Part shown: one piece after another, positions 6,742-60,826 of the stretch | Layout of the letters: each line of letters begins with the position of its first letter | Position numbering within the stretch: the stretch's first letter is position 1 | Assembly: GCA_947095585.1 (NCBI GenBank) | Contig: OX352765.1 | Location: 56,880,920 to 56,944,919 of the forward strand | Length of the DNA: 64,000 nt | Direction: 5' to 3' | From: Nephrocerus scutellatus | Lineage: Eukaryota; Arthropoda; Insecta; Diptera; Pipunculidae | The notes under the pieces: generated by a model | Seen by the model: only the letters and a program-made list of their open reading frames with translations | What the model was told of the DNA's origin: nothing | Databases searched by the model: none | Position numbers and translations under genes: made by a program

Positions 6742-7036
6742 TTAGGTTTTGCTTGGACGACAGAAGACAGTATGGGTTTTGGAAGCGTTAAATTCTACTC
6801 TATTGATTTCTTCCCATTGTATTATGCTGTCAAGCTCAGAATTTAACGTGCTTAACATACGAAGTTGTTTGAGTTCCACATCAGATGTGGAGGGACGTTC
6901 CTCAAACTTATATGAGAAGCTGAGAGTGTTGTCGTCAGCGATGGAGTGAATTGGATTAGAAGTCACAGATAAGAGATCATTAATAAAAATGATAAAGAGT
7001 GTCGGGGACAGAACAGAGCCCTGGGGAACGCCAGCA
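6742..7036 (-). pseudogene. LINE reverse transcriptase fragment
   Basis: On the minus strand the segment reads GVPQGSVLSPTLFIIFINDL (about 7035-6976) and then an ADD catalytic block (IADDNTLSF), followed by a VEFNASKT block. These are RT motifs of a jockey-like or CR1-like non-LTR element. Both ends are abrupt. It sits exactly where the gypsy-B LTR body and PBS should be, so it is a later insertion with deletion or a recombination filler. Confidence 0.8.
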
Positions 7037-7046
7037 TAAAGCCAAA

Positions 7047-10220: not shown

Positions 10221-11100
10221 ATTCTTGATTTCCTATTTGAAGAATTTGCATTTCTCCGTGTTATTCCTTAGGTTTGCTTGTCTTAACCGTCGCAGTACTT
10301 CCTCTAGATGCCTCATGTGGTCCTCCAAAGATTCTCCAGTCACGACAATGTCGTCCAGATAGGCAAAAGCGTGAGATTCCATACCTGGGCCGATGACCTG
10401 GTCTATTGCTTGCTGAAACGTGTCGGGGACCTAGTGCAGGCTAAAAGGCATGACGCGCCATTGGAATAATCCACGCCCTGGTACCTTGAATGATGTGTAC
10501 TTCTTACTGCCCACTTCCATCGAAATCTGCCAGTACCCATTCTTGAGGTCCGAACTGCTGATGTATTCTGCGTTTCTGAGGCAATCAAGTATGTGGTGGA
10601 TCCTCGGAAGTGGGTTAGCATCTGGAACAGACTTAGAGTTCAGCGGTCTGTAGTCCACGCAAAGTTTCCCTTTACCGGACTTCTTTTTCACAAGGACGAT
10701 TGAGGCACTGTTGGGGCTCTTGGATGATTCGATGCACCTCTTTTTCAGCAGGTCGTCGATCTCTTCGTCAATGATACGCTGCATGGCCAGGTTCTTCGGG
10801 AAGTTACGCTATTTTAACTGTCGATCGTCCTACATCACGATCCTGTGGCTAGTTATGTTGGGAACGCCGTTCATTGACTCGAACTTCAGTATTTCATGGT
10901 CCAGGAAATATCTTATCTTGTCGTTGATTGGATTCTTACTTTGTATAGTACGTACCTGCGGTTTTTTGGCGAAGTATTGGTTATATTATCGCTGAGAGTG
11001 CGGTTCCACTTACCTATGGTAATCGCTGTTTTGACTCGGCTGAGGAAATCTAATCTAATTATGTTGTCGATGGCCTCTGGCTGGGTGAGTTGTTGAATCT
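10221..11100 (-). pseudogene. Gypsy-A protease end and reverse transcriptase
   Basis: Minus-strand RT of the gypsy-A copy. A long frame (10431-10784) carries the DYRPLNSKSVPDA, LKNGYWQI and RGLFQWRVMPF blocks. A stop follows, then the same frame shows FAYLDDIVV with the catalytic YLDD intact near 10345. Upstream, a protease-end LDFLSRV block is readable near 11040. The gene is cut at 10221 by gypsy-B and continues at 6624. At least two stops and a frameshift kill it. Confidence 0.8.
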
Positions 11101-12155
11101 TGCAGCAGCTGTGTCCGAATCTTATCGTGGTTTTGAACGCCTGCGGTCAAATCCTCCTGTTGCAGTCGTTCTAGTTGTGCCGGGGAGTGGGTTCTGGGGT
11201 TCCACCATTCCTGGCATTCGGCGAAAGCCGTTCTCATTTCCCACTGGTCGGCGGCAGCAGTCGATGCTCCTGGTATTTTTTTTTACCACATTCCCAGCAG
11301 AACAGAACCCTAGGATTACGGCAATATCTCAAATGTCCTTGCTGGTCGCATCGGCGGCATGCTGACCGTGGGTTGACTGCTCCCCCTGGCATCTGGGCGA
11401 CTTGTCGGTGCTGCTCGTCTCTTTTTGGTGGCCGTGATGGTGTTTCGTCGTTTCGACTGCAGCAGTTGAGACACTCGAAATCCTCGGCTAAATTATTCAG
11501 CTCTTCGAGGCAGGAGAAGTCCTTCCGCTTTATGTATAATTGGTAGTCCTGGCGGCTGTTGCGGAAAATTGGTTCCAGCTTCTGCTCCTCATTGTACTGG
11601 GCGTGGCACATCAGGTTCTGGAGGGTAATTACGTTGTCTTTAAACGATTCTTTCGGGAGCTGTTTTTTTAGCGGATGTCGTCATCTAATCGTTTAAAGAA
11701 CCGTTCTGGGAGGAAAACCTTCAGGAAGTTGTTCCTAAATGTTTCCCACATCTTCCAATGACCGCTATTTTTCTTACCAGATCAAGGCCCTATCCTTGAG
11801 GAGTTCTGGCATTGTAAGTGGCTGGAAATTCTTGTCTATCCCATAGACAACCGATAATTCTTCGACCCGTTCAATGAAGTGTCTAGTGGGTTCCGCACAC
11901 CGTCGAATTTCACAGACCATTTCCTGACTTGGTCGATGACCGCTGAATATGATGGTGTGGAGGTACATCGTGGTGGGACGAATATCGCTGGACTTAAGCT
12001 GATAGTTTCTGCTGGGTGACGGTAATCGGAGGTGGTATTGGGGAAACGCTTCTCGTGTGCTGGGTTTCCAGGATGAGAAGTCGTTCTTTTGCTTCTGGTT
12101 TGAGCTCCTTCTCGTTGACATGGGTGGCAAAGCGTTTTCGGAGTATCCACCTGTT
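11055..12155 (-). pseudogene. Gypsy-A gag, broken
   Basis: Minus-strand frames 11774-12264 and 11234-11611 show the RKRF linker, the RKWSVKFDGVRNP and IERVEELS capsid blocks, and a CCHC knuckle (CRRCDQQGH..C) followed by CWECG. Homology is to the intact gag at 51031-52152. Several frame changes separate these parts. The N-terminal end is interrupted by a SINE at 12156. Confidence 0.8.
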
Positions 12156-33782: not shown

Positions 33783-35124
33783 TCTGCTTGTTCTTCCTCC
33801 GTTTTACAGGAATTGTATTTTGGAATCATCTCCATGGCTTTCCTCATCAGGGTTATATGTGAGCATCCATAGTGGCGATAGGCACTATCTAAAAGCTCAT
33901 TGCTTGTCGTGACCTTGAAAGCTCTTGGATCCCTTTGGCTGGGTATAACTTTCTTAGATGCTATTCCTGGTGCTGTTGACGTAAGCTTTTGAGGTGTTGG
34001 TTGTGGTTTCACTGATTGCTTAGACTGTGTTTGCTTAGCTATTTGTGCGAAGCTAATACCGCTTTGCACAGTTCTTTTTGCAGACATTGCAGCAAACTTG
34101 TTTTGTTGTGCTTTTAATGAAACTGCTATCTTCTTGTCCTGGATTTTTTGTTTGTAGACTGGACATCCACGAAAGTTTGCTGGGTGTCCGGTTTTCTGGC
34201 AGTTTCAGTCTTGAGTCGTTCCCAGTGGATTTCTTGGTTAAGGAGAATTTTCTTCTGGTAGACTTCCTGTGCGTTGATGTTACGGTCGACTTCTACAACA
34301 AAACAGTTATATTTCCTGTCTTTTGCTTTTTTTGACTTGAATGGAGTTACTGTTGTTACTGAAAGTCCATCCATTTCCATGGCAGATTTAATTTTGTCGG
34401 CTTGAGTATTGTGCTGCAATCCTTTAAGAACCAAAAGTTTCTTCCGCTGGTCTTTTGGAGTAAAGGAATGATTTTCGACCTTTTCTTTGGCGAGAAAGTC
34501 CAAGATCTTCCGATATCCATCAGCACAAGAGGTCTTAATTGTTGATTTTGTCAGGCTGTTGTTGATGATGCTGTAATTAAATGAAATTTTATTGATTAAT
34601 AAGTGTTCCCTTAATTTTTCAACATTAAGATTGAAGCAAACAATTGGTGGTTGCGAATGCTTCTTGTTATTAATGGCAGTGTTTTGGGGGTTTTTGAGCG
34701 ACGATGATTTTCCCGCACGTTGTGCAGGCAGGGCCGGGTAATCTGGCACAGGTACCGAAGGTACTTGTTTTTCAACGTTTGCAACAATGGCTGCAAGAGC
34801 CTCGGAGTCTTCCTCTAAGGCTATTTCTTCTTCTTCATCAGCCTCTTGGTCGTTGCGTAACTTTTTTTGTTGCTTGTTTGCAGATTTCTTCTTCTTCTTC
34901 CTTTTTCCATCACAATTTGTCAGACACGTGTTGTCTTCCTCATACTCTAATGACGAAGTCAGCTCGTTGGGTTTCTTGCTAGCTACCTGCTCAGCAACTT
35001 CCCCATCGTTAACTAATGAGGCAAGTGCCCTTCGTAGCTCATTTGCTACCTGCACCCCTTGTTCGTTAACGGCTGACGAGATAATGTCTTTAATCATGGA
35101 TAGAATAACGTTGACATTTTCCAT
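33758..35124 (-). pseudogene. LINE-B ORF1 (gag-like), frameshifted
   Basis: The first frame, 34126-35124, has an N-terminal region, a Lys-rich patch, an acidic EADEEEEIALEED run, and a jockey-type RNA-binding region ending HWERLK. The C-terminal part continues in another frame from about 34205 to 33758, with a half zinc knuckle (CQKTGHPANFRGC) followed by SGISFAQIAKQ. Earlier CCHC knuckles expected between these parts are missing, so a deletion and frame change occurred. The end overlaps the ORF2 start region by 25 bases. Confidence 0.8.
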
Positions 35125-43195: not shown

Positions 43196-43674
43196 GACTA
43201 CACAGCCCCACCTTGTTTTATATATATAGAAAAAGAAGATTATATTATGACTATATTTGGATTAATGTGGTATTAGGACTGGTTTTATGGCGAATTTTAT
43301 TAAAACGTTTTTATTAGCTCGCTTTCGTGTATGTCTGTCTGTGCGGTTGGGATTTTTGAATTGATTTTTAGCTAACTTCCCATTGAGCTAGAGACTTGAG
43401 ACATAGCTCAGAACTGGATGAACCTTAACAAATCACAAAAAAAACAACCTATAAAAATTAAAATTTTTCATGTAATTTCTCTAAAAGGAGAAAGTGCAAA
43501 GTTTAGGGTTAATTTGGAAAAAATCGATGTTTACTTCCTTTACTTCCAATTTTTTTCCAAAAACTGTTGCCAAAGGAGATACACATGTGTAAAAAATGTG
43601 AATAGGAGCCCCCGACCTTGGGGCCCGATCACTTCCATATTTCAATAGGAAGTGTTATCATCGGAGATACACAT
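43196..43674. repeat. Repeat edge and dispersed-repeat units at the gypsy target
   Basis: 43300-43400 has GCTCGCTTTCGTGTATGTCTG and TAGCTAACTTCCCATTGAGC, which look like a dispersed-element end. From 43420 the dispersed repeat family follows, including GGAGATACACATGTG and GGGCCCGATCACTTCC. It ends in GATACACAT at 43674, with the ACAT target duplication. Confidence 0.65.
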
Positions 43675-43875
43675 TGTAACGAGGTTTTCCCAGCCGGGGT
43701 AGAACTCAGTGTGACCAGGGTTCCTTCTATTAGGGTCGTTACAATAAAAAGAATTTGTTTTTAGTTGGGAATGGAATTCAATCGTTCTTTATTTGTTCTT
43801 CGCTTAATCTGTACACTTAAAATTATCGGTTGTTTAAAGCTATATATTATTTTACTGTATAAGTTTCAATTATGA

Positions 43876-44922
43876 TTAAAGGAGACCGACGTATCTCCAG
43901 GCGGGATGATAGTCTGTTCTCGCGTAGAGCGTGGATTTGAAGGCAAGGACTTCGCTCTTGAACCTCCAATAGTGTGGATAATGTCTAGCGTTAGGCGTGG
44001 GCGTGAAGGCAAGGACTTCGCTCTTGAACCTCCAATCTAGCGTACAGCGTGGGTAATGTCTAGCGTAAAGCGTGGGCGTGAAGGCAAGGACTTCGCTCTT
44101 GAACCTCCAATCTAGCGTACAGCGTGGGTAATGTCTAGCGTAAAGCGTGGGCGTGAAGGCAAGGACTTCGCTCTTGAACCTCCAATCTAGCGTACAGCGT
44201 GGGTAATGTCTAGCGTAAAGCGTGGGCGTGAAGACAAGGACTTCGCTCTTGAACCTCCAATCTAGCGTAAAGCGTGGATAATGTCTAGCGTAAAGCGTGG
44301 GCGTGAAGGCAAGGACTTCGCTCTTGAACCTCCAATCTAGCGTAAAGCGTGGATAATGTCTAGCGTAAAGCGTGGGCGTGAAGGCAAGGACTTCGCTCTT
44401 GAACCTCCAATCTAGCGTAAAGCGTGGATAATGTCTAGCGTAAAGCGTGGGCGTGAAGGCAAGGACTTCGCTCTTGAACCTCCAATCTAGCGTAAAGCGT
44501 GGATAATGTCTAGCGTAAAGCGTGGGTGTGAAGGCAAGGACTTCGCTCTTGAACCTCCAATCTAGCGTAAAGCGTGGGTAATGTCTAGCGTAAAGCGTGG
44601 GCGTGAAGGCAAGGACTTCGCTCTTGAACCTCCAATCTAGCGTAAAGCGTGGGTAATGTCTAGCGTAAAGCGTGGGCGTGAAGGCAAGGACTTCGCTCTT
44701 GAACCTCCAATCTAGCGTAAAGCGTGGGTAATGTCTAGCGTAAAGCGTGGGCGTGAAGGCAAGGACTTCGCTCTTGAACCTCCAATCTAGCGTAAAGCGT
44801 GGATAATGTCTAGCGTAAAGCGTGGGCGTGAAGGCAAGGACTTCGCTCTTGAACCTCCAATCTATAGGATGACTACTGGCGTAAAGTGTAAAGTGAAGGC
44901 AAGGACTTCGCTCTTGAACCAT
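43876..44922 (-). repeat. 75-bp minisatellite in the 3' LTR, open in sense frame
   Basis: Eleven full 25-codon units, each opening WRFKSEVLAFTPTLYARHYP, plus two degenerate units, make a 348-codon open frame on the element strand. The unit contains two TCTAGCGTA-AGCGTGG sub-copies and GAAGGCAAGGACTTCGCTCT. Because 75 is divisible by three, unit gain or loss keeps the frame. Start and stop codons exist, but I treat it as a repeat, not a proven gene. Confidence 0.9.
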
Positions 44923-44954
44923 TCACTCTGACTTGTTGCCGGGAAGAGGGATTT

Positions 44955-45751
44955 CTAGGAAAGAAGACCGATTGTTAGTACTGCTGGCCTTTTATAGTCC
45001 TCCATCGAGTGTAGAAATCCCGTTGTTGCAACGATCGTGAAATCCGCTAACTCGCCTGATGGTGTGCTGTTGTTGTTGTTTTCTTTGATGTGATATGGTT
45101 GTTGTTGTTTTGTCCGGCCGGTCAGTATTGCTGCGCTCGGCGGTTTATTGGTTCGTGATCCCGTTGGTGCAACGATAGGGAAATCCGCTACGTCACATGA
45201 TCGGTGGGACTTGGTAGTGTTGTTGTTGCCTCTTTGTTGTTTGTTAGTTCCAAGATACCGTTGATGCAAAATTAGGGAACTCCGCTACATCGCATGATCG
45301 GTGTAGTGTTGTTGTTGTTTTGACTCGTTTGTTATTTGTTGGTTTGCCTCGAAAATGCGTGCTGTCGTACATTGTGTGTTGTTTGTTGTTGTTTTTCTTT
45401 TGGTTGTCTAATGATGCTGCAGACTTCTGATTGTCCGCTATCATATTTTGCATGCTGTTTGTTGTTGCCTTTTACGTGGGTCTGCGCCGTCTTACACTGC
45501 ATGCTTTGTTGTTGTTGTTCTCCTTGACTTGTCTGATGCAAAATGTATGCATGTTGTTTGTTGTTGTTTTGAATATTGGTCGGGTATTCTGTGTCTGTGG
45601 TGTTGTATGCCTGCTGTTGTTGTTTTCTCCGATGATGCTGTGTGCTTCTGCATGTATTGTGAGTCACGAGCGGGGTATCCCTAGTCTGTGTGGTCTGGTG
45701 CTGTATGTGTGTCGTCATTCTCTCACTCAGCTGCTTGATGATGGCGTGCAT
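44955..45751 (-). repeat. LTR U3-side region: three degenerate copies and GTT runs
   Basis: Three diverged copies near 45010-45075, 45150-45225 and 45245-45320 share a CCCGTTG-TGCAACGAT core, AAATCCGCTA and ATGATCGGTG, each followed by GTTGTTGTT runs; GTT runs continue to 45625. The minus-strand frames here (44955-45269, 45332-45751) are Asn/Gln-rich as a result and are not called genes. The same structure is at 53592-54388. Confidence 0.75.
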
Positions 45752-46007
45752 TGGTTGTGCGTGGTGAATTTACGCGTTGTGAAATATAGAGAACCTGTGT
45801 ATCATAAGCCGAGAGTAATTTCGGCGAGTAATTTACCACTTAAAAGAGTGGGAAACATGTTGCTAGGTTTAAGAACATTATGGTAAACGTTTCTTTGTAA
45901 TGTGTATGCAAGTTTTTTTATTAAATTCAAAAGAAAGTGTTGTTTACAAAAAGATGGTTGCGTACCAAAAATAATGTGTGGAAAAAATTGTGTGGCAAAT
46001 TTTCCCT

Positions 46008-47378
46008 TCACACCTCCCCCTTACTTCGACGGATGCTGATCTTTCCCTTCCTGGTGACTAGCACTCCAAGTCGGGTCTTGTCCTGCACATGGAAGAAGTG
46101 TATCCTTCGTAGTTCTCCCGCTTGTACTCTCGCCTTTGCCGTATCTATCTCGGCCTGGAGTTCATGGGATACGGTTTCGCTCATGGTCTCTTCTTTGTGC
46201 ACTATGTCACTCCCTGCGAGTGACAGGACATCTTCCTGTCGTCGGGTCGTCGCGGTTTTTGGTGGGTTGTTCCTGTCTGGTCCGGGTTCGAGGAGGCCTG
46301 TCGGCGGGGTGAAACTTCTTTCCCTCGGTTTGTTGTTGTGGCTGCCACTGCTACTGCTGCTGCTACTACGGTTGCTGCTGTTGCTCCCACTACTGCTGCT
46401 GCTGCGGGTACTGTTGCTACTACTGTCACTGCTGCTGCTACTGCTATCGTGTCTGCTGCGGCTGCGGTAGCGGTGGCGAGTGCGGCGCGGAGTTTTTGGC
46501 CTGCTGCGGTTGACTCTTTCTCGGATGTTACAGTCTATGTCGTCATCGCCTAGTCCGAGATCTGGAAACTTAATTGCTGGGTCGGCGCTTCTTTGGATGA
46601 GGTTGGCAAGCATCCTCCGTTTCTTGCTGGCGCTGTCCGGCGACATCCTCTGGCCTGGCGAGTCGGGTCCTGACAGTCCCCAGGTGAGGACTTTCTCCGC
46701 TGCTTCCAGTAAAAATGCGCCACAATCCACCCCATTTCGCTGTTGTGGCATCTCCATGTGTCGGCCTGGGTATGAGTCCTGGAACTCTGCCCACGTCCAG
46801 TGATGTCCCTTCGATAGGTGCTGTTGCACGACGTAGCCGCGAATTATCTCAATGGCCTCGTTCCTCGGTGTTTTGGCCCACGAATCGTACACATCAATGG
46901 TGGCACGGTGAGGTCTCCCCGGGTTGGTAACCACCACGAGGTACCAATGGTTGCCGTCGCAAATGGGCACTAAAACCAGGTCTTTCCTGATGAGGTCCTT
47001 GTGCCGGTCCCACCTGCTCACTAGTGCGTGTCGCCTAATGGCCGTTGACTCGGGGCTCTCCTGCTGATCTGGCTGGTACTGCTGCATCCGTGAGAAGAGG
47101 AATGTGCTGCAGATCCTGATTCTCTCCCGGTGGCTTTCCTCCATCCTTCTCTCTAACCACCTGAGTCCGACTCCCACCAGAACGTCGTTGAAGTATACCC
47201 CTTTCTTTAGTCGGCAGTAGTCGGCCATTCGCACATCGATGCCACCTGGCCCTGGAGGAAAACTTCCGATCACCTGGTTTAACTCGGCGTCTCCGGATGC
47301 GTGAATCGTGTTTGTGGCTTCCATGCAGATGCGTTGTATGGCTTCGTTGTCTATCTTTGGTGTCCTCTGGGTATTCAT
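46008..47378 (-). CDS. ORF3: Ulp1/SENP-like (C48) cysteine protease with Arg/Ser tail
   Basis: A 456-residue protein in the env position of the gypsy element. Residues about 55-225 form a Ulp1/C48-type protease: a YFNDVLVGVGLRWLERR block like the WLND substrate-groove segment, LVLVPICDGNHWYLVVV (His144), IDVYDSW (Asp165) and MPQQRNGVDCGAFLL (Gln213, Cys219). The Gln-x5-Cys spacing is that of Ulp1, and the His-Asp-Cys triad is complete. Residues 285-350 are Arg/Ser-rich and then poly-Ser; the C-terminus is basic. C48 enzymes mature or remove SUMO-type modifiers. The stop codon lies inside the LTR start and the last codons are the PPT, so the ORF is integral to the element. There is no signal peptide or membrane segment, so it is not an env. 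Expression may use a spliced or reinitiated RNA. Confidence 0.85.
   Translation of the reverse strand: MNTQRTPKIDNEAIQRICMEATNTIHASGDAELNQVIGSFPPGPGGIDVRMADYCRLKKGVYFNDVLVGVGLRWLERRMEESHRERIRICSTFLFSRMQQYQPDQQESPESTAIRRHALVSRWDRHKDLIRKDLVLVPICDGNHWYLVVVTNPGRPHRATIDVYDSWAKTPRNEAIEIIRGYVVQQHLSKGHHWTWAEFQDSYPGRHMEMPQQRNGVDCGAFLLEAAEKVLTWGLSGPDSPGQRMSPDSASKKRRMLANLIQRSADPAIKFPDLGLGDDDIDCNIRERVNRSRPKTPRRTRHRYRSRSRHDSSSSSSDSSSNSTRSSSSSGSNSSNRSSSSSSSGSHNNKPRERSFTPPTGLLEPGPDRNNPPKTATTRRQEDVLSLAGSDIVHKEETMSETVSHELQAEIDTAKARVQAGELRRIHFFHVQDKTRLGVLVTRKGKISIRRSKGEV
46013..46022 (-). promoter_or_regulatory. Polypurine tract
   Basis: AAGGGGGAGG on the element strand directly abuts the 3' LTR start TGTGAAGG. 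It serves as the plus-strand primer site in LTR elements, and it also encodes the last residues of ORF3. Confidence 0.9.
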
Positions 47379-47668
47379 CTTGTAAAAATTTTGTTGGTTT
47401 TGGTTTTGTTTACGATGTCTGGATACACTGAGTAATCACTTGAGACTAATTTTTACTTGTTGTGTGTACTTGAAACGAAAACAAGTTGCGGGACCTGTAC
47501 TCCGTTATTTTCTTCTTCTGGTGTAGTTTACTTCGTTGTTTCAGCATTGGGGTGTCGTGGTGTTACTTTGGATGTGTTGTCTTTTCTTTCTTTTCCCAAG
47601 TTGATATCATAGTTTCTGCAATTTAACTCTTTTGGTTACAGATGGGATCGTCAAATGCCGTTTCAGTG
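47379..47668 (-). other. Spacer between pol and ORF3
   Basis: About 290 bases without an ORF separate the pol stop from the ORF3 start. It is A-rich directly before the ORF3 ATG. It might contain a splice acceptor or a reinitiation context for ORF3, but no site can be chosen by eye. Confidence 0.5.
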
Positions 47669-50600
47669 TCAGTGTGTTGCTGACGTATTGCTCTGGATTT
47701 CGATGATGATGCTATTGATCGCTGTCGCATTTTCGTCATGCCCCTGACTTCTCTCTCCCGCTTGTGTTTTTTTGTGTGGTCGTCTTGAGGTTTGTTGCCG
47801 ATTGTTTTGTCTTGTGGTTTTTAATGGAACGATGTTCTGTTCATGGTTCCCCGTCCCAGACCGCCAGTTGCGCGGGTTATTATACCATTCGTGCTGATGT
47901 TTGCTGCCGTGTTGTATCACTGTGGGCTCGTTAGAGTGTTGGGTGTGGGGTGTCACTGTTATTGCGATGCGGTTTGTCTTCTCTGGTTCGGGTGGGGAGT
48001 TTCCGTGGAAGTCTTTCAACTCATTGACGTGGGCTGTGCGCTCCTTGTTTTGCCCATGTTTCCTTAGCCTTACTATGACAGGTGAGACGAAGCTCATTAC
48101 TAAGTATGGCCCGTCGTATCGTGGTGCTAGTTTACTAGCGAACCCTTCCACTGCCTTTGATAGGTGGTGCTGTTTGACCAGCACCAGATTCCCGATCTCG
48201 GGCTTCCAAGGACGTCGTCTGAGGTTGTAGTGGCGGGCTTGATCCTTCGCAGCTCGTTCTAAGTTTCGTCGCACGATCTCGAAGATCTCGTTCATCTGGG
48301 TCTTTCGGTCCTCTGGTTTTTTACCTAGTGTACCCGTCCCAGGAGTGATCTCGTCGTACAGCGTGTTCGGAAGGCGGGGTTCTCGGCCCTGTGTCAGGAA
48401 TGCCGGGCTGTATCCTGTTGAGTCCTGTACGCTTGAATTTATTGCTAGCATAACTTCGGGCAGCTTCTCGTCCCAAGTGCGTTGTTGCGTTCCCGCTAGT
48501 TGTGCAATTATTGTTTTAGCGGTGCGGTTGACCCTTTCAGTGGGATTTTCTTGGGGGGGCGCTGTAAATTGCTGGCGTATGCCCATGGTCTCCAAGAATC
48601 GACGAAATGCCCTGCTACTGAATTGCGCCCCGTTGTCTGTTATCAGGATCTTGGGTACGCCGTATCGGGCCAGTATACGTTCGCAAAAAGCCCGTTGAAC
48701 TCCTTCGGTCGTTGCCCTTCGCATTGGAATCAGTTCGACCCATTTCGAAAACCGATCAAAGAAAACCAGTAACATGGTATTTCCGTGTTTCGACCTAGGG
48801 AGTGGCCCAACGAAGTCACTACACAATGTGGCCCATGGTTCGTCGGCCACCTGGGTAAGCATTTTACCTGCTGCTTGCTGTTGGCTGGGTTTGTAGCACT
48901 GGCAGCTTTCACATTTCTTTACATACTGACGAATGTCACGAAACATACCCGGCCAATAGTAGCGACCGCATATTCTCGCCGTGGTCTTCCGGATCCCCAG
49001 GTGCCCTGCTGATGCGCTGTCATGGTTTTCCTGCAGTACCCGACTTCGAAGGTTACTTGGCACACACAGTTTCCACGGTGTTGAGTCCTCGTCTCCGGCT
49101 CGATGCCCTATGTGTCGATACAGCTGCTGGCCTTCGATCACGTAGTCGGGGAATTTGGCTGGGTCCTCTGTGACCTGCTGGACCTTCTTTTGCAGCCAGT
49201 GGCACTTTTGTTGCTCTATGTGTTCCTCGGAGGTTGCCATCAGTGTTTCTTGCGGCTGTCTTGATAGAGCGTCTGCAACGACGTTGAGTTTGCCCCGCCT
49301 GTACTGTATGTCGTATGTATACTGCTGTAGTTCTAGCGCCCACCGTGCGATCCGGCCGGACGGGCTGGATATCGAGTTTAGCCATTTGAGCGAGAGGTGG
49401 TCTGTTATTACTGTAAACCTATACCCTTCGATGTATGCCCGCATCTTCCTTATTCCCCATACGATGGCCAGGCATTCCTTTTCGGTCGGCGAGTAGTTCT
49501 TCTCTGCGGGGTTTAGGTGTCGACTGGCATACGCTATGACCCGTTCACTGTCGTCTATCTCCTGGGTGAGGACTGCTCCTAAACCATAATCGCAAGCATC
49601 CGTCTGGAGTGTGAACTTCTTAGAGAAATCGGGGCAGGCCAGGATTGGGGCCTCGGTAAGTTTAACTTTGAGTGCTTCGAATGCTTGCTGCTGCTCTTCT
49701 CCCCACTTCCAGTGCTTGCCTTTCTTGAGGAGGCTCGTCATCGGTCGCACGGTCTCGGCGAAATCTGGAACAAATCGGCGGTACCATGAAGCGATGCCCA
49801 GGTACCGGCGTACCTCTCGTACATTACTCGGGGGTTGGAGCTCTTTGATGGCCGCTATTTTGTCGGGGTCAGTGTGTATGCCTTTGTTACTGACCACGTG
49901 TCCCAAGTACCGTATTTCCGTTTTGCAGAACTCACATTTTTCCGGGTTAATTTTTAGGTTAGCCATCTGCAATCGCCTGAACACCTTGCGCAGATTTCCC
50001 ATGTGTTCGTCAAACGTTCTCCCGATGACGACTATGTCGTCAAGATATGCAAACGCATGGGGCTCCATCTCTGGTCCGATGACTCGATCGAGCGCTCGCT
50101 GGAAGGTCGCAGGGGCCGAATGTAGCCCAAACGGCATCACGCGCCATTGGAACAAGCCACGGCCGGGTACCGTGAAGGCGGTGTACTGCTTACTCTTCTC
50201 CTCCATGGGGATTTGCCAATATCCATTTCTCAGGTCCAGATTACTGATGAATTTGGCACCGCGAAGCTTTTCTAGAATGTGTTGGATTCGTGGCAGGGGG
50301 TATGCGTCGGGCACTGATCGTGCATTCAGTTCTCGATAGTCGATACATAGTCTCCATTTGCCCGTCTTCTTTCGCACAAGAACTATGGGCGCGCTGTGGG
50401 GGCTATGTGAAGGCTCGATACATCCTTTTTCCAACAACTCGTCGATCTCTGTATTTATTATTTCCTGCATGGCTGGATTACGGGGGAAGTAGCGCTGCTT
50501 TATTGGGCGTTCGTCGTGCATGATGATTCTGTGTTCCGTGATGTTGGAAACGGCGGGTAGTTGATCAAATTTCTTGAATTCTTGTTGCAGAAACGCTGAA

Positions 50601-51045
50601 AGCTGTTCCTGTTCTGTCCGTGGTGTTTCTTGCGTGGTGGTGCATTGTCGGATGTGTTCTGCGGGCGTTGTTCTGTGCTGTAATTTTATGGTCTGGCCAC
50701 CGCAGCTTAGACGGGCCTCCACCCGTGACAAAAAGTCCAGACCTAAGATTACTTCATCCATTGCATCTGGGAGAATCAAGAATGGAAACTGTATCTCCCT
50801 ATTACCTATCTCGACATCTAGCTGTAGGGCCTCTCGGATCAACTTGGGTGTCCCTTCGGCCATCCGTACGGTCACATCCATGGGTAGACTCTTTGTTGTC
50901 CCCCTTTTGTCTTCTGCAAAACGTTCGCTCACAAAACTCCTAGTAGCCCCTGTGTCAATCGTAGCTTTTACCGGCGTCCCTCCTAGAGTGATGGTGGCGA
51001 GGATCCGGTTAGAATCGTAGGCAAGGAAGTTTACTGGGCCCGGGG
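47669..51045 (-). CDS. pol: Pol polyprotein: protease, RT, RNase H, integrase
   Basis: The frame is -1 relative to gag and open from upstream of the gag stop; the long open part is 1,087 codons from 50932, and the protease active site ATIDTGATRSF lies just above at about 50960. Numbering from 50932: RT 155-350 (LCIDYRELN, Asp233, YLDD 296-299), RNase H (TDAC Asp446, ITDH Asp511), integrase zinc region (His637, His644, Cys674, Cys677), and catalytic core Asp706, Asp766, Glu799. The C-terminal part has a GPY-like YDGPYLV block and a basic, Gln/Asn-rich tail. Production would need -1 frameshifting near 51031-51050; no classical slippery heptamer was seen. The stretch between Asp766 and Glu799 is two residues shorter than in the decayed gypsy-A copy. 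Confidence 0.92.
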
Positions 51046-52152
51046 TGTCGGTCTTGGGGTTTCCGTCGCACCACGGTTTCGGCGGTCCCCTTGCTCGTTT
51101 CCCGGTCGTTCGACGCGTTTACGGCAGCATTCCACGGTCCGAACATTTCGAAGGCCGCAGTCCCAACAGAAGATGGTTTGGGGGTTACGACAGTCCCGCC
51201 TCATGTGTCCGTCCTGGCCACATCGCAGGCAAGCCGTCCTTACATTTATTCGCGCTTCCATATTTTGTGCTACCATGAAATTCCTTTCGGGTTGTCTGGG
51301 TCGGGGCGAGGGTTTGATAGGTTCTGCTGCACCAGCGATGCCTTCGAAATCTTCTGCCAGACTGATGAGTTCGTGGAGGTCTCTAAAATCCTTCCTCCGG
51401 ATATAGTACTGGTACTCTTGGCGACAGTTTCGGAAGATCCTTTCGACCTGTTGTGTACCGGTGTAGTTTGCGTGCCTCATGAGGTTCTGCATTATGATTA
51501 CGAAATCCTTGAAGCGCTCCTTTGGCTTTTGCTGGCGTTGACGAATTTCGTCTTCTAGATGTTCCCAGTACCTGGAGGGCAGGAAGAACTGTAGAAAATC
51601 TGTCGTGAAGGCGTTCCAGGTCTCCCATTTTCGGTTGTTGTTTCGGAACCATAATAACGCGCGGTCACGGAGTAGTTCCGGCATGGTTCTGGGTAGAAGG
51701 TCCCTGTTTAAACAGTAGGCATCCGCAAGTTCTTCTAGCCTTTCGATGAATAGGAGAGGCTCCTTACCACCATCGTACTTCACCGACCACTTCCTCACCT
51801 GGTCCATTATTTGAGCGTACGACGTAACTGTCGTGTCCGTCCTGCTTCGCGTTGGAACCACTTCCGGTGGTGGCGGAGAGATTGCCCTGATGGTTGCCTT
51901 TGGGTCGTCGCGTACCGTGGCTTCAGATGGATTCAAGGTTATAAGGGGCGCTTGTGATGGGCTGCGTCTATGCTTCTCCTCGAGCTCACTTAGGCGTATC
52001 TCGTCCTCCGACGTAACGTCTCGTCCCGAAACAAAGCTGGAAAACCTTTTCCTTAAATCTTCCACTGCGCCGTTGCTGTCGATTCGGAACTCGCTCATGT
52101 AGCTCTTCAGCTCCTCTTTCGACAGTGTATAAATCCAACTGGTCTTAACCAT
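51031..52152 (-). CDS. gag: Gag polyprotein
   Basis: 373 residues. An N-terminal LSKEELKSYMSEFRIDSNGA segment plus EDLRKRF resembles a SAP-type motif. A Pro/Ser/Thr-rich linker follows, then a capsid-like helical region (KWSVKYDGGKEPLLFIERLE, LLRDRALLWFRNN, RQRQQKPKERFKDFV). One CCHC knuckle (CLRCGQDGHMRRDC) and a CWDCG..ECC block lie near the C-terminus. It forms the particle and packages RNA in this family. The leader before the start is only about 64 bases after the PBS. Decayed relatives are at 7047-8466 and 11055-12155. Confidence 0.92.
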   Translation of the reverse strand: MVKTSWIYTLSKEELKSYMSEFRIDSNGAVEDLRKRFSSFVSGRDVTSEDEIRLSELEEKHRRSPSQAPLITLNPSEATVRDDPKATIRAISPPPPEVVPTRSRTDTTVTSYAQIMDQVRKWSVKYDGGKEPLLFIERLEELADAYCLNRDLLPRTMPELLRDRALLWFRNNNRKWETWNAFTTDFLQFFLPSRYWEHLEDEIRQRQQKPKERFKDFVIIMQNLMRHANYTGTQQVERIFRNCRQEYQYYIRRKDFRDLHELISLAEDFEGIAGAAEPIKPSPRPRQPERNFMVAQNMEARINVRTACLRCGQDGHMRRDCRNPQTIFCWDCGLRNVRTVECCRKRVERPGNEQGDRRNRGATETPRPTPRAQ

Positions 52153-52216
52153 CGTGGTTATCTAATTGTGTTCTTTCTTTATTGGTATATTTTTTTTTTC
52201 TCTATCAAATTCCAGG

Positions 52217-52234
52217 GTCCCTGCTCGGGCGCCA
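52217..52234 (-). promoter_or_regulatory. Primer binding site, tRNA-Lys-like
   Basis: TGGCGCCCGAGCAGGGAC on the element strand lies two bases after the 5' LTR. It complements the 3' end of a tRNA-Lys(UUU)-like tRNA with about one mismatch. It differs from the PBS-like site at 1512. Confidence 0.85.
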
Positions 52235-52236
52235 AT

Positions 52237-54649
52237 TGTAACGAGGTTTTCCCAGCCGGGGTAGAACTCAGTGTGACCAGGGTTCCTTCTATTAGGGTCG
52301 TTACAATAAAAAGAATTTGTTTTTAGTTGGGAATGGAATTCAATCGTTCTTTATTTGTTCTTCGCTTAATCTGTACACTTAAAATTATCGGTTGTTTAAA
52401 GCTATATATTATTTTACTGTATAAGTTTCAATTATGATTAAAGGAGACCGACGTATCTCCAGGCGGGATGATAGTCTGTTCTCGCGTAGAGCGTGGATTT
52501 GAAGGCAAGGACTTCGCTCTTGAACCTCCAATAGTGTGGATAATGTCTAGCGTTAGGCGTGGGCGTGAAGGCAAGGACTTCGCTCTTGAACCTCCAATCT
52601 AGCGTACAGCGTGGGTAATGTCTAGCGTAAAGCGTGGGCGTGAAGGCAAGGACTTCGCTCTTGAACCTCCAATCTAGCGTACAGCGTGGGTAATGTCTAG
52701 CGTAAAGCGTGGGCGTGAAGGCAAGGACTTCGCTCTTGAACCTCCAATCTAGCGTACAGCGTGGGTAATGTCTAGCGTAAAGCGTGGGCGTGAAGGCAAG
52801 GACTTCGCTCTTGAACCTCCAATCTAGCGTAAAGCGTGGATAATGTCTAGCGTAAAGCGTGGGCGTGAAGGCAAGGACTTCGCTCTTGAACCTCCAATCT
52901 AGCGTAAAGCGTGGATAATGTCTAGCGTAAAGCGTGGGCGTGAAGGCAAGGACTTCGCTCTTGAACCTCCAATCTAGCGTAAAGCGTGGATAATGTCTAG
53001 CGTAAAGCGTGGGCGTGAAGGCAAGGACTTCGCTCTTGAACCTCCAATCTAGCGTAAAGCGTGGATAATGTCTAGCGTAAAGCGTGGGCGTGAAGGCAAG
53101 GACTTCGCTCTTGAACCTCCAATCTAGCGTAAAGCGTGGATAATGTCTAGCGTAAAGCGTGGGTGTGAAGGCAAGGACTTCGCTCTTGAACCTCCAATCT
53201 AGCGTAAAGCGTGGGTAATGTCTAGCGTAAAGCGTGGGCGTGAAGGCAAGGACTTCGCTCTTGAACCTCCAATCTAGCGTAAAGCGTGGGTAATGTCTAG
53301 CGTAAAGCGTGGGCGTGAAGGCAAGGACTTCGCTCTTGAACCTCCAATCTAGCGTAAAGCGTGGGTAATGTCTAGCGTAAAGCGTGGGCGTGAAGGCAAG
53401 GACTTCGCTCTTGAACCTCCAATCTAGCGTAAAGCGTGGATAATGTCTAGCGTAAAGCGTGGGCGTGAAGGCAAGGACTTCGCTCTTGAACCTCCAATCT
53501 ATAGGATGACTACTGGCGTAAAGTGTAAAGTGAAGGCAAGGACTTCGCTCTTGAACCATTCACTCTGACTTGTTGCCGGGAAGAGGGATTTCTAGGAAAG
53601 AAGACCGATTGTTAGGACTGCTGGCCTTTTATAGTCCTCCATCGAGTGTAGAAATCCCGTTGTTGCAACGATCGTGAAATCCGCTAACTCGCCTGATGGT
53701 GTGCTGTTGTTGTTGTTTTCTTTGATGTGATATGGTTGTTGTTGTTTTGTCCGGCCGGTCAGTATTGCTGCGCTCGGCGGTTTATTGGTTCGTGATCCCG
53801 TTGGTGCAACGATAGGGAAATCCGCTACGTCACATGATCGGTGGGACTTGGTAGTGTTGTTGTTGCCTCTTTGTTGTTTGTTAGTTCCAAGATCCCGTTG
53901 ATGCAAAATTAGGGAACTCCGCTACATCGCATGATCGGTGTAGTGTTGTTGTTGTTTTGACTCGTTTGTTATTTGTTGGTTTGCCTCGAAAATGCGTGCT
54001 GTCGTACATTGTGTGTTGTTTGTTGTTGTTTTTCTTTTGGTTGTCTAATGATGCTGCAGACTTCTGATTGTCCGCTATCATATTTTGCATGCTGTTTGTT
54101 GTTGCCTTTTACGTGGGTCTGCGCCGTCTTACACTGCATGCTTTGTTGTTGTTGTTCTCCTTGACTTGTCTGATGCAAAATGTATGCATGTTGTTTGTTG
54201 TTGTTTTGAATATTGGTCGGGTATTCTGTGTCTGTGGTGTTGTATGCCTGCTGTTGTTGTTTTCTCCGATGATGCTGTGTGCTTCTGCATGTATTGTGAG
54301 TCACGAGCGGGGTATCCCTAGTCTGTGTGGTCTGGTGCTGTATGTGTGTCGTCATTCTCTCACTCAGCTGCTTGATGATGGCGTGCATTGGTTGTGCGTG
54401 GTGAATTTACGCGTTGTGAAATATAGAGAACCTGTGTATCATAAGCCGAGAGTAATTTCGGCGAGTAATTTACCACTTAAAAGAGTGGGAAACATGTTGC
54501 TAGGTTTAAGAACATTATGGTAAACGTTTCTTTGTAATGTGTATGCAAGTTTTTTTATTAAATTCAAAAGAAAGTGTTGTTTACAAAAAGATGGTTGCGT
54601 ACCAAAAATAATGTGTGGAAAAAATTGTGTGGCAAATTTTCCCTTCACA
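52237..54649 (-). repeat. 5' LTR of the intact gypsy element
   Basis: 2,413 bp, otherwise almost identical to 43675-46012. It carries one additional 75-bp unit, accounting for the whole 75-bp length difference. The outer end TGTGAAGGG abuts the ACAT duplication. Confidence 0.95.
52438..53559 (-). repeat. 75-bp minisatellite in the 5' LTR
   Basis: Twelve full 25-codon units plus two degenerate ones; a 373-codon open frame on the element strand. It lacks the Ala-to-Val change seen in one unit of the other LTR (near 44233). It lies in the second half of the LTR, upstream of the AATAAA signal. Confidence 0.9.
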
Positions 54650-56231
54650 ACATGTCTCGAAAATTTTCAAGAAAAGCGGGTTAATTTTACAAAAAGTTTT
54701 GTCGATTGGAGATACACATGTGTTTAAAATTTGAAGAAATCGGGCTGATTTTTAAAAAAAAATTATGGGCACATCTCGCGCCTCAGGGCCCGTTCACTCC
54801 AAAAATAAATTTTATTGTCTATCGGAAATACACATGTGCTTAAAATTTGAAGAAATCGGGCTAATTTTAAATTTTTTTATGGGTGCCCCTCGGACCGTTC
54901 ACTACAAAAATTTTACAAAAAGTTTTCTGTATTTCTGTATTTCCGGAGACAAAAATTTCTATTAAAATTTGGGGCCATTGGGCCTCAGGGCCGAGGGATG
55001 CCCATATAAATTTTTAAACAATAAACCGATTTTCTTAAAATTTTATACACATACGTATCTCCGATGGACGACACTTTTGTAAAAATTTTAGAGACCCCGG
55101 GCCCCAGGGAAAAAATTTACCAGATTTCCTTCAAATTTTATACACATATGTATCTTCGATGGACAACAGTTTTTGTAAAAATTTTAGATACCCCGGGCCA
55201 CGGGGGCGTGGGGCCACAAAATTTTTTTAAAAAAAATTTATCCGATTCTCTCTCAATTTTATAGAAGTATGTATCTCCGATGGACAACACTTCTTGTAAA
55301 GTCTTGGGAGACCCCGGGTCACAGAGTCATGGGGCCACAAATTTTTTTTAAAAAAATTAATCCGATTCTCTCTAAATTTTATAGAAGTGTGTATCTCCGA
55401 TGGTCAACACTTCTTGTAAAAACTTGTGAGACCCCGGGTCACAGAGTCATGTCAATAAATTTTTTAAAAAAATTAGCCCGACTTTCTTCAAATTTTATAC
55501 ACGTGTGTATCTCCGATGGACAACACTTATAGAAAAAAAATTACAGACGCCGGGCCCTGGGGTCGTGGGGCCCCATACAAATTTAAAACAAAAATTAGCC
55601 CGATTTCGGTAAAATTTTATACACATGTGTATCTCCGATGGACAAAACATTTTGGCCATTTTTTGAGCGAATGGGCCCTGAGGCCCGAGGGGTGCCTGAT
55701 TTTCTTCAAATTTAAAAGATATGTTTATCCCGATGGACAAAAGTTTTTGTAAAATTTTTGGAGCGAGTTTTTGATTTGAATTTTTTTCCCATACAAATTT
55801 TTTTTACACATGTGTATGTCCGGTGAAAACAGTTTTTAAAAAAATAAAAGTGAAGGGGGCTCTAATATTAATTTTTTCTAAATTAACCAGGTTCAAACTT
55901 TGCACATATATGTCTCCCCTATTACAGAATTTACATGAAAAGTTTTAATTTTTAAATTCTCTATAATTAACTTCGCGTGCACGTGGCTGGCTGGCTGGTC
56001 AGATTTTCTGATCAATTTTTAATGGGACCGATTTTATTGAAATTTTGCACACATTTATATTTCCGGTGACAATACTTTCTATTAAAAATTGATACCCCTC
56101 GGACCACGGGTTTGGGGTATATCGCTATATCGCATCAGATCACGGCAAAGTCTGAGCTCTGTGCTTTGTGAGCAGCGCTGTTCGCTGCCGCTGCGTCATT
56201 TGGTGGATGATTTTGCCACAAAACGAGCACG

Positions 56232-56468: not shown

Positions 56469-59456
56469 TTACTCTATGCCTTCTGCATCTTCTGCTGCTG
56501 CTGATCGCCTTATCTTTTCGATTCTTCGCAGCTCGTTTTGCACATTCGTTATGAATACACACACTTCTGTCCACTTACCCTCAGATCTCAGCATTTCTTC
56601 TAACAGGACTTGTGGACTTGGCAGGCTGCTTCTCCATTCTCTGAAGCGTCCGCATTGGAAAATCGCATGCTCCGTATCTTCTTCCAGTTCCGGACAATCT
56701 GGGCAAAAAGGTGAGCTATCGTGTCCAAATCTATAAAGATATCTTCGATAGCCGCCATGGCCTGACAGAAACTGCGTAAATTGGTAATTGCAGTTACCGT
56801 GAGATCGGTTTGTCCAATTCTCTATATTCGGGATCAGTTTGTGGGTCCATCTTCCTTTCAAACTTATGTCCCACCTGGCTTGCCATACAGCCATTGAGGT
56901 GGCCTTTTCTTCTTCTTTGATCATTTTGATTGATCGTTGGTCCGGATGTGATAAGGCTCTTCTATTGTAGATCCTAAGCATTTCATCTGCGAGGATGTCT
57001 ACTGGAACCATTCCTGCTATAACGAGGGCCGCATCATCGGAGATCGTTCGGAACCCGCTGATCGTCCTTAGTGCACTGAGTCTGTATATAGACGAGAGGT
57101 TTCTTCTTATTTCTTTAGTCACCAGTGCCTCCGCCCAAACTGGGGCTGCGTACAGGAGGACTGAGCTAACTACTCTGGACATTAGGACCCTCCTTGGATA
57201 TCCTGGTCCTCCGACATTTGACAGTATCCGAGATAATGCTGCCTGCATCTGCGACGCCTTTCTGCTAGAATAGTCCACGTGTATTTTAAAACGGAGCCTA
57301 TTGTCAAGCATTACTCCTAGGTATTTGACAAAATCCTTTGATCTAATAGTCTGGTTACCAACTCGTATATTTATGTATTCTATATTTTTCCGGCTGGTAA
57401 TCAGGACTGCTTCCGTTTTATGGTCGGCTAATTCTAAACCGACGGATACTAGCCATTTTTTGATTTGGCCAACTGCATCATTCGTGGCTGACTCTATTCC
57501 ATTGATTGTCTTTGACACTGTGACAACGGCGATGTCGTCAGCGAATCCAAATATTTGTACGCCTGGTGGTAATGCTAGTCTTAGAACTCCATCGTACATT
57601 ATATTCCATAGAAGGGGACCCAGCACCGATCCTTGTGGGACTCCTGCGGAGACGTTATAGTACTTTGTACCCTCATTGGTTTCGTACCTCAACCTTCTAT
57701 AACTTAAGTAGCTTGACACTATCTTCCTTATATAGTATGGTGCATCCATTCTGGCGAGTGATCTTCTTATTGAGGACCATTTTGCAGAGTTAAAGGCGTT
57801 TTTTATGTCCAGTGTCACTACTGCACAATATTCCTTTGTGCCCCACCGCCATCTTTTTCCTTCAATCGCATTCTTTGCTATATTGACCACCGCCTTTATG
57901 GCGTCGACGGTCGAGCGCGATTTTCGAAACCCGAACTGATGATCGGACAGTGCTCCTTTATTATCCGCTATATTAAGCAATCTGTCATATATGATCCGCT
58001 CGAGTATCTTTCCCATTGTATCTAGTAGACATATTGGGCGGTACGATGATGGTTCGCCCGGTGGTTTGTTTCCCTTTGGAAGCAATACTAAATGCTGCAG
58101 TTTCCAAGGTTCAGGGAAAACTCCTTCATCTAGACACTGTTGCATGCATGTCATGAACATGTCCGGCCTACTTCGGATGGCGGCTTTCAATGCTTTATTA
58201 GGAATGCCATCGGGTCCAGGAGCTTTGTTGTCTCGTATTCTTTTACTTGCGTTCACGAGTTCATCAACTGTTAGCCTTGGAATACTTTCTGTGCTAATTT
58301 CTCTTATTATGTTGCACATAGTATATGGTCCTTTCGGAAATAGGTGTTCTACGATGGACCTAAGCTTTGTTGGGCATGATATTTGCGGGGTCTTACAGCC
58401 TTTTAGCTTTGCCATAACTATTTTGTATGCTGTGCCCCAGGGATTGATGTCCGCCTCGTCACATAGTCGTTTGAAGCACTTCGACTTGCTTTCTTTGATT
58501 GCATTTTTTAAATTTCGTCTAGCTAATCTTAGCATATCAAGACGTTCTTGAATGTCTGATCCCCTTCTTGATCGCTGCACTCTACGTCTGGCTTGTAAGC
58601 AGGCAGCTCTCAGTGCTTTTATCTGCTCATTCCACCAGTAGCAGTGTTCACCTCTCTTGCTAGGTCTTCTCCTGGGCATAGCTGCGTCGCACGCTGTAGT
58701 GATTATACTGGTAAGTTGTTGCGACAGGATCTCAGATGTTCCGCTTTCGATTAGGAAGCTTGAGTTTATGATTTCCTCAAACATTTCTTTATCAAGGAAC
58801 TTGTCTTTCCATTTAGGTCCCCCTAATTTTGGGCGTTGCACGGCTTTTTTTTCTTTAATTTCAATTACAATCGCCTGGTGGTCGCTGTGCGTATAGTCTT
58901 CGCTGACGCGCCATTTTATCATCCGCAGGAGGGAACTGCTAGCGAAGGTAATATCGATGATCGATCCCCTTCCTGCTTTGCGATACGTATTTGCTCGTCC
59001 CGTGTTAGCTATGCCTATATTTAATGAGGCGAAAGATTCTAGCAGATAATGTCCTCTGATATTAGTAAATCTGCTGCCCCAGTCTGTTGCCCAGGCATTG
59101 AAGTCTCCGCCTATAACCACTGGAGCTCTTCCTCGAGCATCGGCCGTTAAATTTTCTATCATTGCTGAGTATTCGCTCATCGTCCAGCTGGGTCTTGCGT
59201 AACAACTATAAAAGTTGATTCCATTTATTTTTGCCCGTACGAAGCCCTCCGCCTGCCCGTCTACATCTTGGAAGGCATGTCTCCCGCAAATCCATATTGC
59301 AGCTTTTTCTGTTTTGTCACATGCCCAAGCGTTGATGTCACGAGATTTGTACGGTTCGCTTATTAAAATTATGTCCGCTCTCTCGTCTTTAGCCGTCTGT
59401 GACAGGATATCCTGTGCTATCTCGCAGTGATTTAGGTTTATCTGGATAACCTTCAT
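56469..59456 (-). CDS. R1-type LINE ORF2: endonuclease and reverse transcriptase
   Basis: 995 residues. Endonuclease 1-200: QINLNHC (Asn7/Asn9), LISEPY (Glu34), GGDFNAW (Asp118), HSDHQAI (Asp192, His193). RT about 400-720: KAPGPDGIP, SYRPICLLDTMGKILERIIY, LDIKNAFNSAKW (Asp550), AGVPQGSVLGPLLWNIMYDG, and FADD at 638-641. The C-terminal zinc motif C-x2-C-x8-H-x4-C (CPDC..EHAIFQC) is typical of the R1 clade. All catalytic residues are present. The start ATG overlaps the ORF1 stop as ATGA. The protein nicks its microsatellite target and copies its RNA there. Confidence 0.93.
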   Translation of the reverse strand: MKVIQINLNHCEIAQDILSQTAKDERADIILISEPYKSRDINAWACDKTEKAAIWICGRHAFQDVDGQAEGFVRAKINGINFYSCYARPSWTMSEYSAMIENLTADARGRAPVVIGGDFNAWATDWGSRFTNIRGHYLLESFASLNIGIANTGRANTYRKAGRGSIIDITFASSSLLRMIKWRVSEDYTHSDHQAIVIEIKEKKAVQRPKLGGPKWKDKFLDKEMFEEIINSSFLIESGTSEILSQQLTSIITTACDAAMPRRRPSKRGEHCYWWNEQIKALRAACLQARRRVQRSRRGSDIQERLDMLRLARRNLKNAIKESKSKCFKRLCDEADINPWGTAYKIVMAKLKGCKTPQISCPTKLRSIVEHLFPKGPYTMCNIIREISTESIPRLTVDELVNASKRIRDNKAPGPDGIPNKALKAAIRSRPDMFMTCMQQCLDEGVFPEPWKLQHLVLLPKGNKPPGEPSSYRPICLLDTMGKILERIIYDRLLNIADNKGALSDHQFGFRKSRSTVDAIKAVVNIAKNAIEGKRWRWGTKEYCAVVTLDIKNAFNSAKWSSIRRSLARMDAPYYIRKIVSSYLSYRRLRYETNEGTKYYNVSAGVPQGSVLGPLLWNIMYDGVLRLALPPGVQIFGFADDIAVVTVSKTINGIESATNDAVGQIKKWLVSVGLELADHKTEAVLITSRKNIEYINIRVGNQTIRSKDFVKYLGVMLDNRLRFKIHVDYSSRKASQMQAALSRILSNVGGPGYPRRVLMSRVVSSVLLYAAPVWAEALVTKEIRRNLSSIYRLSALRTISGFRTISDDAALVIAGMVPVDILADEMLRIYNRRALSHPDQRSIKMIKEEEKATSMAVWQARWDISLKGRWTHKLIPNIENWTNRSHGNCNYQFTQFLSGHGGYRRYLYRFGHDSSPFCPDCPELEEDTEHAIFQCGRFREWRSSLPSPQVLLEEMLRSEGKWTEVCVFITNVQNELRRIEKIRRSAAAEDAEGIE

Positions 59457-60826
59457 ACTTTTCTGCTGGCGATAGCTCTCCTAAAGACTGGGCATTTGCT
59501 GCTGCCCGCTACATGCTTCGCATCTTCTGGGTGTTCCTTTCTACAGAACATGCACGAAGGCTCCTTTGCGCAAGACTTAGCTATGTGGCCCTCATCCCCA
59601 CATCTTCTACACAACTTGGAGCGATCTTCTCCGTTTTTACACTGCTTGGCAATGTGCCCAAATTCCAGGCATTTGAAGCACTTTTTGAGGAGTGTCCGTT
59701 CGCGGATGCGACACACTACCCACCCGATTTTTATCTTCTGTACTTCCAGCAGCTTCTTTGCTTTTGCATTTGGAAGGCTGATAGTCGCCGTTTGGGTTCC
59801 ACCATATGCTTTCCTCAGCGATATAAAGTCTGACGGTGTGACGCCTTCGACTCCGGCTTGGACTTCGATTGATTCACAAATGTCTTCTTTTGTGGTGATC
59901 TCATCGATGTCTTTCAGCTCGATGCTAGTGCGTTGGGTGAGGGTTCTTACGTTTGCTTGTTCGCCTAACGCCTCACTTATGACGCTTTTAAATTCCGCTG
60001 TCTTGTCACTTGTCTCCTTCAATTGAATTAAGAGGTCACCTTTTTGTGTCCTTCTGATCCTAGATACTGCTTTTCCAATTGTTTCTAGTTTTGGATCAGC
60101 CTTCACGTTCCGCAATATCTGCGCATAGGATATTTCGCCCTTCGCTTCTATGACTATGGCGTCAGGTCTTGCCTTTCTTATAATTGGCTTTTGTTTTACG
60201 GCGGACTTCTTGGCAGATGCGTCTGACTTCACTTTATTTTTAGTTTTAGCGACGACTTTTGTCCATTCGCCTTCTCCAGTTTTTTTAACATTTTTAATAC
60301 CCTTTTCCTGGGTTTTTTCTTCCGTCGCTATTACCATAGGCTTACGTGAGGACTGGCGTTGCTCTTGCCTCCGCTTTGGATTCGGCGTTTCGCTGTGGAT
60401 AGGCTGCTTCCTTTTTTGCTCCATTGAAGCTTTGAGCCATGGAGAGGTTTGAGATGAGGTGTGATTAACCATCTTCTCCTGAGTCTTCTTGTTATTAATG
60501 TAGATAGCCGATAACTCATAGAGGTTTTTAATGCTATCAATCGCATCCCGCATGGCTTGATGGATGGAACGTCTTTTTCCATCTTCCAACATTTCTACCA
60601 GTCCCTTGATCTGCTCTCCTAGTTTATGAAAGTCAGATTTGCCGGGGCTGGCTTCCTTTATCACCTTTCTTGTTTCCGGTGATTCGCGCCTTTGTGACGT
60701 TTGGGCCACTGGTGATCTCGCCATCTTCGAACTCCTTTTAAAAGAATTCACATTCTCCTCTCCTACAACTCCTTCTACTTCTCCTCCTCCTAAATTCTGG
60801 GAATTCATTGTAAATTGGGTCCCCAC
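59453..60826 (-). CDS. R1-type LINE ORF1: gag-like with zinc knuckles
   Basis: 457 residues. A basic, Lys/Gln/Ser-rich N-terminal half is followed by a conserved gag-like region (KTAEFKSVISEALGEQANVR to PNAKAKKLLEVQ) and three C-terminal knuckles (CFKCLEFGHIAKQC, CRRCGDEGHIAKSC, CMFCRKEHPEDAKH). It binds element RNA into particles. TGA overlaps the ORF2 ATG by four bases (ATGA), which favours termination-reinitiation. The frame is uninterrupted. Confidence 0.9.
   Translation of the reverse strand: MGTQFTMNSQNLGGGEVEGVVGEENVNSFKRSSKMARSPVAQTSQRRESPETRKVIKEASPGKSDFHKLGEQIKGLVEMLEDGKRRSIHQAMRDAIDSIKNLYELSAIYINNKKTQEKMVNHTSSQTSPWLKASMEQKRKQPIHSETPNPKRRQEQRQSSRKPMVIATEEKTQEKGIKNVKKTGEGEWTKVVAKTKNKVKSDASAKKSAVKQKPIIRKARPDAIVIEAKGEISYAQILRNVKADPKLETIGKAVSRIRRTQKGDLLIQLKETSDKTAEFKSVISEALGEQANVRTLTQRTSIELKDIDEITTKEDICESIEVQAGVEGVTPSDFISLRKAYGGTQTATISLPNAKAKKLLEVQKIKIGWVVCRIRERTLLKKCFKCLEFGHIAKQCKNGEDRSKLCRRCGDEGHIAKSCAKEPSCMFCRKEHPEDAKHVAGSSKCPVFRRAIASRKV

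Follow-up and report, generated by a model that had tools for sequence, protein, structure and literature searches.

What does an insect long terminal repeat (LTR) retrotransposon carry after pol, if not an envelope gene? The question is raised by a 64,000-nucleotide stretch of the pipunculid fly Nephrocerus scutellatus (assembly GCA_947095585.1, contig OX352765.1, positions 56,880,920 to 56,944,919), which is called the window here. It was found that a complete-looking Ty3/gypsy element occupies positions 43675–54649 of the minus strand (10975 bp) and that its third open reading frame (ORF3; 46008–47378, minus strand, 456 codons) lies between pol and the 3′ LTR. A preliminary description of the locus had placed a SUMO protease in this env position. 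In summary, ORF3 is a member of the C48/SUMO-protease family, and the C48 protein is almost certainly encoded by the element.

ORF3 matches the Pfam family Peptidase_C48 (PF02902) with 89.1 bits (E = 4.9e-25), against a curated cut-off of 20.7. The catalytic set His144/Asp165/Gln213/Cys219 is present in this order with the Gln-x5-Cys spacing (codons 46949–46947, 46886–46884, 46742–46740, and 46724–46722, minus strand), as the preliminary description had it, and the predicted structure has the SENP/Ulp fold. The profile search and the structure prediction, both proposed there as checks, agree on the family. The label "Ulp1/SENP-like" fared less well in its first half: the closest solved relative is SENP7, by sequence (62.3 bits, followed by SENP1, SENP2, and SENP5) and by predicted fold, rather than Ulp1 proper. 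The SENP7-like catalytic domain, supported by profile, sequence, and predicted fold, spans residues ~50–270 (46569–47231, minus strand). It is followed by a Ser/Arg-rich linker (residues 286–364; 46287–46523, minus strand), which was predicted with low confidence and is probably disordered, and by a C-terminal domain of a helix and three strands (residues ~404–456; 46011–46169, minus strand), which is common to relatives of the element. The linker and this lineage's own C-terminal domain distinguish ORF3 from SENP6 and SENP7 (the Ulp2 type), which are cellular genes.

Does the protein act on SUMO? As far as the sequence tells, it probably does. A C48-fold protease for another tag, such as NEDD8, ubiquitin, or a similar modifier, is improbable, because the top sequence matches of ORF3 are the SENPs named above and, for P0023, a related protein described below, SENP7 likewise heads the C48 chains among its matches. 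ORF3 was also considered as an envelope gene. This was rejected, with no env family among its four Pfam matches at E ≤ 1, and so was a membrane segment, the top 19-residue Kyte-Doolittle mean being 1.09.

Is ORF3 a gene of the element or a passenger? The 5′ LTR (52237–54649, minus strand, 2413 bp) and the 3′ LTR (43675–46012, minus strand, 2338 bp), both TGT...ACA, enclose ORF3 and are flanked by exact target site duplications (ATGT in the minus-strand sense; 54650–54653 on the 5′ side and 43671–43674 on the 3′ side). ORF3 is on the same strand as gag and pol and starts, in a different frame, 290 nt after pol. Its final codons form the polypurine tract AAGGGGGAGG (46013–46022, minus strand), which adjoins the 3′ LTR. 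The LTR edge at 46012 runs through the last sense codon (46013–46011), and the TGA stop codon (46010–46008) lies within the LTR. Strand, position, polypurine tract, and stop codon are all as previously described, and ORF3 can be regarded as an element gene, since the LTR pair and the target duplication enclose it and its stop codon lies in the LTR. The primer binding site TGGCGCCCGAGCAGGGAC (52217–52234, minus strand) is located 2 nt after the 5′ LTR. The assignment to Ty3/gypsy is given by the LTR pair with TG...CA ends, the target site duplication, the primer site, the purine tract, and the pol order protease-reverse transcriptase (RT)-RNase H-integrase.

The two LTRs are identical at 2335 of 2338 aligned bases, with three mismatches and one 75-bp indel, which indicates a young insertion. 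The indel is one unit of an internal tandem array, the 5′ LTR holding one unit more. These arrays of the 75-bp unit (43896–44945 and 52458–53582; 11 and 12 registered positions with a 300-nt reference) are open in one frame, as repetitive ORFs of 348 and 373 amino acids. The youth of the copy might by itself account for the open frame of ORF3, if a host SENP gene had been captured by chance and were functionless for the element. A single copy of the element family was seen in the 64-kb window, and four relatives sharing the C-terminal domain have no C48, both of which fit such a capture. It is nevertheless very improbable. A full-length protein search with ORF3, capped in its number of candidates, gave one distant match among the 7990 scored, vole SENP1 with 26% identity, and a search with residues 25–240 gave no match; thus, the C48 domain is distant from those cellular genes that were within reach of the search. 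Furthermore, the 3′ end of ORF3 also serves as the purine tract, and P0023, with 58% pol identity, retains C48 with the four catalytic residues.

The gag gene (51031–52152, minus strand, 373 amino acids) matches Retrotrans_gag (1.4e-8) and has a weak zinc knuckle slightly under its cut-off. From its listed start, pol (47669–50932, minus strand) encodes the remainder of the protease, RT, RNase H, and the zinc finger and core of integrase. Upstream of this start the pol frame remains open, includes the motif DTGA, and overlaps the end of gag in a different frame; the protease match of 25.9 bits, against a Pfam cut-off of 28.2, was obtained with the listed frame, in which the DTGA part is missing. 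The pol protein lacks one residue which is nearly invariant across a 19-sequence pol alignment. Thus, the frames are called open, and the pol enzyme is not taken as proven. The element had been described as intact, which is correct for the open gag, pol, and ORF3 frames, the LTRs, and the target duplication but not for this residue; from the sequence, "intact" applies in the sense of open frames. Fragments of older relatives lie at 5603–12006 on both strands, apparently nested and broken (protein identity 33–66% for gag and 55–64% for pol by tblastn). A match to ORF3 was not found among these fragments by tblastn. The pieces related to the element elsewhere in the window apparently no longer have their 3′ parts.

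Is the C48 domain common among the relatives of this element? In a pol protein search, the best 120 of 7887 matches were examined. The closest organism-named relatives among the matches listed are from Diptera (Eurosta, Drosophila, and Musca). A pol tree of 78 rows was made from the window element and 77 of the proteins P0002–P0080. The window element falls among 41 rows separated by a branch with a support of 99 in the SH-like approximate likelihood ratio test (SH-aLRT); 14 of the 41 carry an organism name, and all 14 are Diptera. Six of the 41 proteins reach more than 100 residues past the aligned pol end: P0003, whose extension is a fusion with other transposon domains, and P0014, P0023, P0034, P0037, and P0064. 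The latter five have pol identities to the window element of 60%, 58%, 57%, 66%, and 67%, respectively. The preliminary description had proposed a search for gypsy elements with the same order of pol and ORF3, and P0023 is one such relative among the matches listed. In this protein, whose contig is 6409 bp long and whose pol identity of 58% extends over 89%, PF02902 follows the integrase in the same polypeptide (E = 5.0e-21), and all four catalytic residues are kept. Over the C48 domain it is 28% identical to ORF3 (50.7 bits). Since P0023 is a single sequence, an assembly artefact is conceivable, though unlikely.

By eye, the five proteins end like ORF3. A motif pattern written for this tail matched ORF3 and P0064 only. 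Leave-one-out profiles on the last 60 residues were compared with self-shuffles and with the ends of 116 other proteins. ORF3 outscored 9999 of 10000 own shuffles, P0023 outscored 10000 of 10000, and P0014, P0037, P0034, and P0064 each outscored 2000 of 2000, while every one of the six outscored 116 of 116 other ends; these figures are somewhat flattering because the six sequences were first picked by eye. When ORF3 and P0023 were compared pairwise, the tail similarity did not show (334 of 2000 shuffles were equally good). With a profile of longer tails from the four C48-free relatives, ORF3 gave an E of 0.086 and P0023 an E of 0.16, both ranking above the rest of the proteins and above 2000 shuffles of the ORF3 tail. 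The last ~55 residues of ORF3 look like a separate small domain common to C48-free relatives. One of the five tail-bearing relatives has C48 (P0023), and P0014, P0034, P0037, and P0064 do not. C48 is thus not standard for this element group. Since the tail of ORF3 and P0023 is common to the four C48-free relatives, the group has a third coding region whose tail is conserved, and a SUMO-protease module was either added to this region or lost from it.

Was C48 captured once, or twice independently in the lineages of the window element and P0023? Among the four relatives with the tail but no C48, three (P0014, P0037, and P0064) exceed P0023 in pol identity to the window element, and the match between the C48 domains of ORF3 and P0023 (50.7 bits) does not surpass the score of either domain against SENP7 (62.3 and 64.2 bits, respectively). 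The pol tree is compatible with one or two origins; because the forks within the 41 rows are unsettled, one gain and two gains are indistinguishable on it. I consider two captures doubtful, since the domain occupies the same place in both proteins, between the integrase and the common C-terminal domain, and both are of the SENP7-like type with the tail in common.

To which lineage does the element belong? It has LTRs of 2.3–2.4 kb, a length of 10975 bp, a 4-bp duplication, and a primer binding site of the putative tRNA-Lys type. It probably belongs to the Osvaldo/Ulysses-like group of insect elements, a placement made from the length of the LTRs, the primer site, and the size of the target duplication rather than from a tree with reference sequences. 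Members of the mosquito Osvaldo lineage have LTRs of about 1–2.1 kb, a tRNA-Lys primer site, and mostly 4-bp duplications, and most full copies are 9–12.5 kb (PMC3286476). The lineage is also a drosophilid group (PMC5408442). In contrast to the window element, no C48 is mentioned for the lineage in the available parts of these two papers.

Other mobile elements resemble the window element in part. The third ORF of errantiviruses, or insect endogenous retroviruses, also sits between pol and the 3′ LTR, and in one set the lineages with a third ORF are all env-bearing gypsy/gypsy elements; errantiviral ORF3 encodes an F-type envelope (PMC12992720), whereas the ORF3 studied here is a C48 protein with neither a membrane segment nor an env match. 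Ulp1 domains have been described in Ginger1, Mutator-like, and NeSL/Utopia elements (PMC2836005, PMC4640811). Ginger1 DNA transposons have a gypsy-type integrase with a C-terminal Ulp1 or OTU domain (PMC2836005), comparable to the integrase-C48 order in P0023. However, they are cut-and-paste elements with terminal inverted repeats, while RT and RNase H are present in both the window element and P0023; a Ginger1 identity of the window element is ruled out by its LTRs and RT. NeSL/Utopia elements are retroelements with an Ulp1-like domain, but they are non-LTR elements of nematodes, and the domain is N-terminal (PMC4640811). Among the titles and abstract openings of the open-literature papers listed for C48/Ulp1 in retroelements, none describes C48 in an LTR retrotransposon; this search did not extend to Repbase reports and most subscription papers, so an earlier notice is possible.

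Given that the element contains a C48 domain with its catalytic residues and that one relative has the order pol-C48-tail, what might the protein do? It would consist of an N-terminal SENP6/7-type SUMO protease domain, the Ser/Arg-rich linker, and the recurrent C-terminal domain. Since ORF3 begins past pol in another frame, the protein would be made perhaps via a spliced or otherwise subgenomic RNA, and the many AG dinucleotides between pol and ORF3 make a spliced RNA possible. It may work in the nucleus as an active SUMO deconjugase, stripping SUMO from host transposon-silencing factors, in flies those of the Su(var)2-10/SUMO/SetDB1 branch of the PIWI-interacting RNA (piRNA) pathway; this would lead to more transcription of the element. 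The combination of a SENP6/7-type protease with a lineage-specific tail suggests an enzyme directed to a place by the tail, and the C-terminal domain may guide the protein to RNA, DNA, Gag, or integrase of the element itself. Silencing by piRNAs in flies was proposed to operate through SUMO (PMC7272611). In yeast, Ty1 RNA goes up on inactivation of SUMO conjugation but also on inactivation of Ulp1 itself (PMC8585004). In plants, some Vandal transposons with Ulp1-domain VANC genes hypomethylate related copies. These Vandal Mutator-like elements, whose VANC/KIU genes link an Ulp1 domain with anti-silencing, are suggested as the working analogue of ORF3; they are DNA transposons of plants, and the role of Ulp1 is likewise unknown there (PMC13317346).

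Alternatively, the protease may serve the proteins or particles of the element itself, by removing SUMO from Gag or integrase or by cleaving element proteins, and so aid assembly, nuclear entry, or integration. The element has both gag and pol, and the C48 domain of P0023 follows the integrase in one frame with pol, which makes delivery in particles possible. However, the element already has the aspartic protease motif DTGA, and its own C48 is not fused to pol. I consider this main rival rather unlikely and favour relief from SUMO-dependent silencing. That such relief is the main benefit falls slightly short of an even chance in my judgement, and the whole explanation, a young element with a SENP6/7-type third protein relieving host silencing of transposons, is evenly balanced.

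Two non-LTR elements share the window. An Rfam R2 RNA element (RF00524; 56288–56402, minus strand, 49.3 bits, E = 7.2e-7 over the window) adjoins, downstream, the stop codon of an ORF2 (56469–59456, minus strand) with an Exo_endo_phos endonuclease and RT; the ORF1 (59453–60826) has zinc knuckles. The non-LTR element with these two ORFs does not look like R2, and it is possible that a 3′ recognition RNA was exchanged between non-LTR clades. The second element (30840–35124, minus strand) is split into an endonuclease frame and an RT frame, with an additional upstream frame at 34126–35124.

It can be tentatively proposed, as a possibility clearly below even, that in an insect LTR lineage a third gene other than env has evolved around a conserved C-terminal targeting domain, and that some members are armed with a SENP6/7-type protease which removes SUMO from piRNA-guided silencing at their own loci, an animal anti-silencing factor convergent with plant VANC/Ulp1. 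Known anti-silencing proteins of animal transposons are few, if there are any. ORF3 is a further answer to what LTR elements place after pol, besides env or nothing, and the common C-terminal domain is a handle for finding and classifying such third ORFs. If the proposal is true, an element carrying its own SUMO protease would make the piRNA/SUMO arms race directly testable in tractable insects.
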